Positions 58,713 to 64,000 of a stretch of 64,000 nucleotides of DNA are shown here, piece after piece. Source of the DNA: Lichenifustis flavocetrariae (GTDB taxonomy: Bacteria; Pseudomonadota; Alphaproteobacteria; Rhizobiales; Beijerinckiaceae); contig NZ_JAMOIM010000020.1 in NCBI RefSeq assembly GCF_026130545.1, positions 32,637-96,636 of the forward strand, in the 5' to 3' direction. The translations under genes and the position numbers were made by a program. The number at the start of each line of letters is the position of its first letter. Position 1 is the first letter of the stretch. The notes beneath the pieces were generated by a model. The model was not told the DNA's origin. It was given only the letters and a program-made list of their open reading frames with translations, and searched no databases.

Positions 58713-61364
<2,652 letters not shown>

Positions 61365-61366
61365 TA

Positions 61367-63529
61367 ATGAATAATGCACCAGAGCTCCCGTTACATTCCA
61401 GACCGCAAGGCGCGTGGACTGATCTGCAATTACACACGCTAGGCTGGAAGGCGTTCCAGGATCTGTCGGCTCAGATTTTAGAAGAGACCTTGAGGAGCAC
61501 TGTTGCGATTTTCCGAGAGGCCCAAGATGGGGGACAAGACGCCGTTTTCCTGATTAAGTCGAAATCGGGGACGTACAAGGACGGCACTGCGCAATGTAAG
61601 TTCACATCCAAAGCGACGAGGAGGTTTAAGTTATCGGACCTTCACTCCGAAGAGGCATCTATTATTGATTTGGTAGCTCGTGGGCAGGCGAATACCTATG
61701 TTGTCATCACCAACATGGGGGTTGATGCTACCACAGCAGTACAGGTACGAGATCGGCTGCGTGCACTCGGGGTGAGCAAGCCTCATGTTTTTGGTGGTGA
61801 GTTCATTACTAAGGTCATTCGTCAGAGTGCAAGGCTGCGGGCACTTGTACCTCGCGTTTATGGGCTTGGCGATCTGTCAACGATATTAGATGAGCGACGT
61901 GCCGCACAGACTGCTGCACTACTAGGACACCTGACAGACACCCTAAAGGTGTATGTACCTACTGAAGCACACAGACACGCCGTACGCGCTCTTACAGAGC
62001 ACAAGATAATTCTTTTGCTGGGTGAGCCAGCGACTGGAAAGTCGACAATAGCCGCAATTCTGGCAACAACAGTACTCGAAGGCGACGGTCAGAGATCCAT
62101 TAAGTGCGACGGTCCTATGGACCTCATAAACCGATGGAATCCTCATGAGACCAGCCGCTTTTACTGGGTAGATGACGCATTTGGACCAACTCAAGTCCGT
62201 ACAGATTACATAGACACATGGATTTCCATAATGCCATTTGTGCAAGCCGCAATGGCGAAAGGGAATCGATTTGTACTGACTTCGCGGCGTCATATATATG
62301 AGGGAGCCAAGCCAAGATTAGGTACTCGCAATCATCCTCTTTTCAAGAATAAGAAGGCTATAGTAGATGTTGGCGACCTTTCTGAGGAGGAACGTCGCCA
62401 AATCCTTTATAATCACATCAAAGCGGGCAACCAGCCCGCTTGCTGGAAACGCGAGGTCAAACCGCATCTGCAGGATCTCGCGTCGGAAGGCCGATTTATA
62501 CCCGAGATAGCCAGGCGACTTGGCGACTCTATGTATACAAGTAGAGTAGGGTATAGTCGTGCTGCCCTACTTGCATTTGTTAGAGAACCTAAGACACACC
62601 TTGTAGAAGTTATAAGAGAGCTGGCACGTGTTCATCAAGCGGCTCTGGCGCTTGTTTATGTCGAGAGAAGTAGGCTCGTTATTAACTCATCAGAAAACAG
62701 TAGCGCATGGGGCCTTGTTGCAAAAGCATATGGACTTGAAGACATTTCTCTATCTGAAGCGCTTCATGAGCTCGACCATTCATTTATAGTTAAAGCTACC
62801 GACGGTGTCCATAATTGGTGGACATTTAAACACCCAACCCTAGTGGATGCTTTTTCGGAGATTATCGCACTGAATCCCCAATCTGCAGAGCTCTATATCC
62901 GTGGAGCTCATTGGAGCAGCATACTTTCTGAGGTTGTTTGTATAGGCTGTAAACCCATTAAAGACGCGATTGCTGTCAGCGAGGATCAATTCCCTATACT
63001 TGCAAGGCGTCTATTGGACGTAACTAACGAACCAGATGTAAATACGCTGCTATTCAGGTTTCTTGAAGTTCGAGCATCAGATGTATGTCTTAAAATGTTT
63101 CTTGAACACGAACCGGACGTTTTCCTAAGAGAGTCTCGAAGCTATTTTAGCCTGTCAAACAATCCAAAAATCGGCCTCATGGCTCGCGCACAGAAACTAG
63201 GTCTACTGCCCGACGAGGAAAGGTCAAACATTGTGTACGTCGTCAAACAGCGCTTGAGAGACGAGCTCGATACATTATTCCTAACAGACGATGTGCTTTC
63301 CCTATTCAATCCGATGGATCTAGTAGAATTTACAATTTGGATGAGGAAGTTTCTTCCCGACATCAAAGATCATGTCGCAGATATTGAGAACAGAGTAGGG
63401 CTCGACGAGGATGGGGAATCAGCATTCGACGATTACAAAACAGCCCTGTTTGACCTGGAGAGGATATTTTTAGACGACGATGACGCGCTTTCCACCCTGA
63501 GAGATGCAGAAGGGGAGTATCCGGCATGA
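61367..63529 (+). CDS. Mrr-like nuclease fused to a nSTAND3-type NTPase, probable defence protein
   Basis: A protein of 720 residues. Residues 20-160 look like a PD-(D/E)xK restriction-endonuclease (Mrr) domain: GWKAFQDLSAQIL, then Asp54-Gly-Gly-Gln-Asp58 and Gln76-Cys-Lys78. Residues 200-420 are a STAND-type P-loop NTPase: Walker A GEPATGKST at 219-227, Walker B YWVDD at 266-270 and the sensor stretch RFVLTSRR at 301-308. The remainder is helical and could sense a ligand. This order (nuclease effector, STAND core, sensor) matches anti-phage Avs-like and nSTAND3 conflict proteins. The gene is much less GC-rich than its neighbours and uses codons such as ATA, TTA and AGA, a sign of transfer. 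It starts 2 bases after uvrB and is followed by an IS66 gene. Confidence 0.8.
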   Translation: MNNAPELPLHSRPQGAWTDLQLHTLGWKAFQDLSAQILEETLRSTVAIFREAQDGGQDAVFLIKSKSGTYKDGTAQCKFTSKATRRFKLSDLHSEEASIIDLVARGQANTYVVITNMGVDATTAVQVRDRLRALGVSKPHVFGGEFITKVIRQSARLRALVPRVYGLGDLSTILDERRAAQTAALLGHLTDTLKVYVPTEAHRHAVRALTEHKIILLLGEPATGKSTIAAILATTVLEGDGQRSIKCDGPMDLINRWNPHETSRFYWVDDAFGPTQVRTDYIDTWISIMPFVQAAMAKGNRFVLTSRRHIYEGAKPRLGTRNHPLFKNKKAIVDVGDLSEEERRQILYNHIKAGNQPACWKREVKPHLQDLASEGRFIPEIARRLGDSMYTSRVGYSRAALLAFVREPKTHLVEVIRELARVHQAALALVYVERSRLVINSSENSSAWGLVAKAYGLEDISLSEALHELDHSFIVKATDGVHNWWTFKHPTLVDAFSEIIALNPQSAELYIRGAHWSSILSEVVCIGCKPIKDAIAVSEDQFPILARRLLDVTNEPDVNTLLFRFLEVRASDVCLKMFLEHEPDVFLRESRSYFSLSNNPKIGLMARAQKLGLLPDEERSNIVYVVKQRLRDELDTLFLTDDVLSLFNPMDLVEFTIWMRKFLPDIKDHVADIENRVGLDEDGESAFDDYKTALFDLERIFLDDDDALSTLRDAEGEYPA

Positions 63530-64000
63530 GCACCCCACGTTTCGGAGCCGCGCGTGAGGCGCGATGATGGCCACTCCGATGAGGTAGAGGGGGATGATTT
63601 GGCCAGTGACGACGATCGGCAAGGTGATCCGCATGATGCCCAGCGCGTACATGTTGGATATGGGGTCGGGCGCCGTGTTGAGGTGATCAGCGGGGTGGAG
63701 CGCCGTCGGCGTTGGGCGCGCGAGGAAAAGGCGCAGATCACGGCGGAGAGCTTTGTGCCCGGCGCCAATGTCTCGGACGTGGCGCGGCGTCATGGGATGA
63801 GCCTGGGCCTTCTTCACCACTGGCGACGCCTGGCGCGCGAGGCTGCGAGCGCCACCGCGGGCGCCAATACGACGTTCGTGCCTGTCCTGGCGATGGAGGA
63901 ATCCTGCGAGGCCAGGCCGAGCACTCATGGGGCCGTGATTGAAATTACACTCGGCGGCGCGTGCATCCGGGTTCATGGCCCGGTCGACGGCGCGGCGTTG
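63530..64000 (+). mobile_element. Left part of an IS66-type insertion sequence
   Basis: The TnpA frame begins 24 bases after the nuclease-NTPase gene and returns to high GC. The terminal inverted repeat of the element should lie just left of tnpA, possibly inside the 3' end of the defence gene, but I could not identify it without the other end. Boundaries are therefore approximate. Confidence 0.55.
63554..64000 (+). CDS. tnpA: IS66 family transposase accessory protein TnpA, 5' part
   Basis: The frame is open from GTG 63554, after a CGGAG site, to the right edge (149 codons, no stop). GRRVEVISGVERRRRWAREE followed by ITAESFVPGANVSDVARRHGMSLGLLHHWRRLAR is the helix-turn-helix core of IS66-type TnpA. 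The later part THGAVIEITLGGACIRVHG also fits the family. Another GTG within the frame may be the true start. The rest of the insertion sequence (tnpB, tnpC) would lie outside the window. Confidence 0.82.
   Translation, partial: MRRDDGHSDEVEGDDLASDDDRQGDPHDAQRVHVGYGVGRRVEVISGVERRRRWAREEKAQITAESFVPGANVSDVARRHGMSLGLLHHWRRLAREAASATAGANTTFVPVLAMEESCEARPSTHGAVIEITLGGACIRVHGPVDGAAL

Follow-up and report, generated by a model that had tools for sequence, protein, structure and literature searches.

The window analysed here, 64,000 nucleotides of a contig of Lichenifustis flavocetrariae, carries on its forward strand an open frame (61367-63529, 720 codons plus stop) that joins a nuclease-type domain to an nSTAND3 NTPase, and that a preliminary description had put forward as a candidate anti-phage system. 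Our analysis concerns this gene, its relatives, and a nonapeptide that ends most of the relatives' proteins and recurs on proteins of a few phages. The gene directly upstream, also on the forward strand, is uvrB (58713-61364, 883 amino acids), present in all six genomes of the genus, own genome included. Its stop at 61364 precedes the ATG by two bases, in line with the described position right behind uvrB. No trace of the nuclease-nSTAND3 gene was met in the DNA behind uvrB in three relatives (L101-L103), for which no systematic alignment was made. The content of guanine plus cytosine is 0.44-0.52 within the gene vs 0.58-0.73 across 50-61 kb, which agrees with the lower value noted before. A search with the window protein returned at least 3341 homologues at E≤0.001, and a chance frame is therefore ruled out; a Vibrio relative used as query returned at least 3303 proteins at the same threshold, a list that may overlap with the first.

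The NTPase domain (residues 196-352, 61952-62422) is matched by PF20720 over profile positions 1-154 of 155, with 132.6 bits against a cut-off of 27.2 (E 1.3e-38), and the earlier assignment to the STAND class is thereby confirmed at the profile level. Inside it lie the Walker A motif (62021-62044), D269-D270 (62171-62176) and a T-S-R motif (62279-62287). The N-terminal nuclease-type domain (residues ~21-150, 61427-61816) is covered by the structural match between a relative's model and Avs4; Mrr_cat (PF04471) matched it on residues 23-120 at 16 bits (E 0.013), under the Pfam cut-off of 21, and among five relatives, P0134 exceeded that cut-off (22 bits) and four fell under it. In an alignment of 148 members (A2), invariant columns include those of D58 (codon 61538-61540), Q76, K78 (Q76-C77-K78 codons 61592-61600), G224-K225, D269, R307 and the triplet H489-P490-T491 (62831-62839), which we take to resemble the MHD motif of NLR proteins. 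A conserved D ... Q-x-K is the catalytic set of Mrr-type nucleases, and D58, Q76 and K78 correspond to it here. The residues Q76 and K78 had been named before. The acid D54, named with them, occupies a nearly invariant column, D58 being the invariant acid; the Walker lysine given as K224 is in fact K225; and within the pair D269/D270 the first is invariant and the second nearly so.

Just past the NTPase domain stands K365 (62459-62461; K351 of relative P0173), the predicted partner of an acid in the relatives' tail, as covariation in the relatives suggests. The C-terminal half (residues ~500-716, 62864-63514) is the presumed sensor; it is helical in the relatives' models, and here it lacks the linker and C-terminal nonapeptide found in them. 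The proposed layout of nuclease, STAND NTPase and helical C-terminal half in one chain was therefore borne out, save that the nuclease part reached Mrr_cat only below its cut-off.

Sequence common to two other contigs of the same genome (C107, C100) starts at ~63517, so that the last codons and the stop of the frame belong to an insertion sequence (IS) and native DNA extends to ~63516. The left end of this multicopy element, with the start of its transposase helix-turn-helix gene, occupies 63517-64000 on the forward strand, and the contig ends within it. Its first frame matches PF01527 (E 1.6e-13), and partial further copies occur elsewhere in the genome; the name IS66 is that of the preliminary description. 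There the gene was said to abut the element. The IS does adjoin it, but it also cuts the gene. The window protein is colinear with its relatives, the nearest of which extend ~45 residues further. The window copy is thus 3'-truncated by the IS, which has removed the C-terminal R-S-x-F-x-D-[VIL] nonapeptide from a body otherwise colinear with the family, and an intact system in the window is ruled out because the end of the frame is IS sequence. Neither a search for homologues of P0003 nor a pattern for the peptide end found the lost tail elsewhere in the genome, an assembly of 180 contigs that may have gaps. Because the IS has removed the tail, this copy is likely disabled.

Most relatives end in R-S-[IVLMT]-F-[SD]-D-[VI]-[DA]-[ED]-COOH, typically R-S-I-F-[SD]-D-[VI]-D-E, and this tail stands out from the rest of the C-terminal third, which is just 40-66% conserved per 30-residue block. 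With Q allowed at the first position it is present in 117 of 119 listed homologues, and with Q and S in 119 of 121, the query included; the four proteins without it have 691, 715, 639 and 556 residues. Among 83 genome loci a looser pattern recovered the tail in 75, exactly terminal in 62. Three of the other eight run off their contig (L020, L058, L062), in two the end lies in a further frame (L017, L085), and in L016, L044 and L048 it is replaced, broken or short. These counts are not independent, since the loci overlap with the homologue lists. Tailed records include Chryseobacterium, Streptomyces, Geobacter, Vibrio and Bradyrhizobium. L016, from the same genus (G001), is a second copy in that genus without the tail, its frame running on into other sequence.

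Several lines of evidence suggest that the tail docks on the lid of its own NTPase. AlphaFold confidence climbs again across the tail in the models of two relatives. Covariation was read from 310 sequences, left after removal of 4 among 240 listed homologues (under 735 residues) and of 10 among the 83 loci, which were broken, cut, too distant or not extracted. In this set an acidic tail goes with K or R at the lysine position in 276 of 277 cases and a non-acidic one in 4 of 32. Coinciding losses on a tree point the same way. A further covariation, at tail position 750 (S/D), was set aside since its partners look like clade markers.

If the tail docks, it could either enable the enzyme or restrain it. 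All eight copies that lack a normal end keep all 14 residues examined. In five of these (the window copy, P0038, P0065, L048 and L016) mainly the tail is lost; L085 has its tail in a further frame (L139), and the loss in P0196 and P0204 reaches well beyond the tail. Tail-less copies thus keep their catalytic residues, whereas an unleashed nuclease would predict disabling changes, and for this reason we prefer, at modest odds, a tail that is needed for activation. The opposite arrangement, an autoinhibitory latch that holds the NTPase closed while docked on the lid and is freed by sensing, with the phage peptides inhibiting in trans, fits the same docking and covariation data. Apaf-1-like folds at rest are kept closed by C-terminal parts, and the best structural matches of model 1 include Apaf-1 and NLRC4. 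The five copies just named, with every catalytic residue checked in place, are unexpected for a constitutive nuclease, although silent or very recent copies could explain them. We consider the latch less likely than the preferred reading, but it is the most probable of the alternatives.

Under the preferred reading, in which the tail is required for activity, the helical half of an intact relative would sense a phage product, and the tail, tethered by a disordered linker, would attach to the helix that bears the conserved lysine, within its own or a neighboring subunit. Binding would let the NTPase assemble an active oligomer, and the nuclease would then cut DNA. Phage proteins bearing the same peptide would compete for the site of the tail and so jam the switch.

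The same peptide does occur on phage proteins. A back-translated pattern of RSIFDDVDE plus stop matched six viral contigs, none with likeness to the STAND family, and two relaxed patterns raised the total to 13; two scrambled versions of the relaxed pattern matched no viral contig. We removed contig L115 from this set because its frame has only the nonapeptide in common with the others. In the remaining 12 viral contigs, as in Burkholderia phage Bm1, small unrelated proteins have R-S-[IV]-F-[DC]-D-[VI]-D-E as their C-terminus. Searches of 50,697 phage records with tail queries, of limited sensitivity for so short a query, gave Bm1 as the sole convincing match (CDS_0105, tblastn E 0.2, with a protein end of exactly RSIFDDVDE); ribonucleotide reductases of Streptomyces phages were matched at E 1 to 6 only. 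The tagged gene of Bm1 sits near the right end among small genes, which may be early genes. Each of the 12 records searched, that of L110 being left out, holds exactly one tagged gene.

Many of the tagged proteins carry a spacer like HPNGxPxFxxDGTMLDExGN before the nonapeptide. Their N-terminal parts are of at least six kinds by our reading of a pairwise comparison, among them a relative of phrog_1372 (E 5.6e-26) and one of phrog_3292 (E 1.8e-15). One tagged group has 12 database matches, six of them with the sigma-70 region-4 type domain PF08281; the peptide is terminal in 10 of the 12 and followed by further residues in 2. In P0129 and P0130 the phage peptide is internal or has extra residues after it, and it may be a movable module of ~30 residues and not strictly a terminus.

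What these proteins are aimed at was approached through the ends of host genes: a hub of the host that bound the peptide should leave it on further host proteins as well. Among 30 family-holding genomes the tail pattern matched in 14, in every one of them at the STAND gene. Across the window's class (385 genomes) there was one match, in a frame weakly like a family member's end (phmmer E 4.9e-5, small set); the tail as a general bacterial protein end was rejected on this count, the single match being a probable family remnant. Because no other host gene end matched, at limited sensitivity, we favor the STAND protein as the target of the phage proteins, a proposal drawn from sequence comparison.

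The tail might instead be an address tag for a third protein, common to the STAND and phage proteins, in which case their likeness would reflect a common receptor and not mimicry. Such a tag would suit the recurrence of one nonapeptide after a spacer on unrelated proteins, as well as its internal or extended position in 2 of the 12 relatives of the phage module, and an OLD-like ATPase encoded beside the gene in 18 of 73 loci could be the partner. The 14 matches in family genomes, all at the STAND gene (16 known carriers being missed), the single apparent family remnant in the window's class, the covariation of the tail with a residue of its own chain, and the 55 of 73 loci that have no OLD-like neighbor among the flanking frames kept all speak against it, and we regard the address tag as distinctly less probable than the latch. 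Least probable is a window copy that works with a merely swapped and dispensable end: its frame is open, its checked catalytic residues are all intact and other tail-less copies exist, one with a replaced end in the same genus (L016), but the tail is near-universal in the relatives examined, also in distant Chryseobacterium and Streptomyces records, and the window protein still has the K365 that would pair with the lost acid.

Taken together, we assign a probability of about 0.52 to the reading that the gene encodes a one-chain nuclease-type and STAND protein, likely an anti-phage receptor, with a tail predicted to act as a switch by docking on the lid of the protein's own NTPase, and that the IS removed this tail and likely disabled the copy. 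The wider proposal, to which we lean less than evenly, is that a C-terminal plug of nine residues, seated on the protein's own NTPase lid through the acid-lysine pair, runs a large cross-phylum family of immune receptors, and that phages defeat it with the same nine residues on assorted small proteins. Docking, the direction of the switch (a requirement for activity, not a restraint), the role in defense and the competition by phages for the site of the tail are four things that we infer.

Several observations weigh against these proposals. The Mrr_cat score of the window protein falls short of the Pfam cut-off. The AlphaFold models gave confidence values without coordinates or predicted aligned errors, so the contact of tail and lysine was not seen. 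Among 275,653 column pairs the covarying pair 351-753 comes 259th, those ranked higher being unexamined, and 5 of 10 tail changes do not fall on a shared branch of the tree. Tail-less copies could be recent or silent. The tail pattern missed 16 of the 30 known carriers, and the statement that no other gene end matches holds at that sensitivity. Finally, L153, a sibling nSTAND3 protein with a nuclease-like N-terminus from the same order, has no such tail at its end. The tail is therefore not needed by every protein of this kind, and by this one complete outgroup it is not common to all nSTAND3 proteins that begin with a nuclease-like part.

The surroundings and spread of the family fit a role in defense. 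One cluster of ABC-ATPase proteins supplies a flanking frame in 18 of 73 loci, in 13 of them upstream on the same strand. These 13 loci, with an OLD/AriA-like ABC ATPase just upstream, are L019, L021, L034, L037, L038, L045, L068, L073, L075, L076, L078, L087 and L097. Pfam found AAA_15 in 17 and an OLD-like TOPRIM domain in 10 of 115 neighbor proteins scanned (of 120), and the best PADLOC names for one of them were AriA, then Old and GajA. The ATPase and the STAND gene possibly form a recurrent two-gene unit; such neighbors fit a defense setting, though most loci are without them. Its distribution across relatives of the window's genome is patchy, with 4 of 60 carrying it (own genome included), and it is present on 36 of 72,556 plasmid records. 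Three IMG/VR contigs (L106, L107, L108) each encode a STAND family member at full length and with the tail. A patchy spread that takes in plasmids and viral contigs is usual for defense genes and is no proof. Another nSTAND3 protein of the window's own genome is encoded by an open frame of 1340 amino acids (G000:C105:47354-47806, L157), and homologue P0014 (907 amino acids) has an N-terminal extension, its source name being that of a HigA-type antitoxin component with an ATP-binding part.

The switching of bacterial STAND receptors from rest to activity, and the means by which phages stop it, are matters of current interest. The conservation of a short peptide amid a drifting C-terminal half singles out one contact, open to checking by single-residue changes, and the peptide's presence on natural phage proteins suggests ready-made inhibitors. 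If our reading is true, a peptide-tag mimic jams a bacterial NLR-like switch. That the window copy is probably disabled matters for anyone cloning it as a defense system.

By sequence, the window protein matched no PDB chain at E≤1; profile A2 reached a best E of 0.03 there, with P-loop and helical matches, none named Avs. BFVD gave seven matches at E≤0.001, mostly AAA+ proteins. The PADLOC library includes Avs models. The window protein matched seven PADLOC families at E≤1, none named Avs; no Avs model was matched by three full-length relatives either, which hit only the candidate PDC-S73 at E≤1e-5. Our literature searches returned nothing linking nSTAND3 with a restriction endonuclease, nothing on PDC-S73, nothing on RSIFDDVDE or four shorter tail fragments, and, in work on Avs proteins with a C-terminal tail or mimicry, nothing on a nuclease-nSTAND3 family.

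PDC-S73 matches the nuclease-STAND half (E 3.8e-26 to 3.9e-35), with best stretches of 5-337, 7-340, 4-379 and 4-360 of its 752 positions; no whole-profile match was seen, and since the matches end at positions 337-379, the C-terminal half and tail of the family lie outside them. Apaf-1 and NLR-type STAND receptors differ from this family in both effector and sensor, and we know of no such tail peptide in them. Avs proteins combine effector, STAND domain and C-terminal sensor in one chain; an effector-type domain and a STAND domain were found here, and the C-terminal half, a presumed sensor, is helical in the relatives' models. Avs4 (AVAST type 4) gives a structural match that covers the nuclease-type domain of a relative's model, but its chain of 1534 residues has roughly double the length. 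Avs5 (SIR2-nSTAND3) has a SIR2 effector where this family has a nuclease-type domain. Our best reading, from sequences and predicted models, is of an immune nuclease similar to Avs4 and Avs5 that has a switch peptide at its C-terminus, is likely disabled in this window and is mimicked by rare phages.
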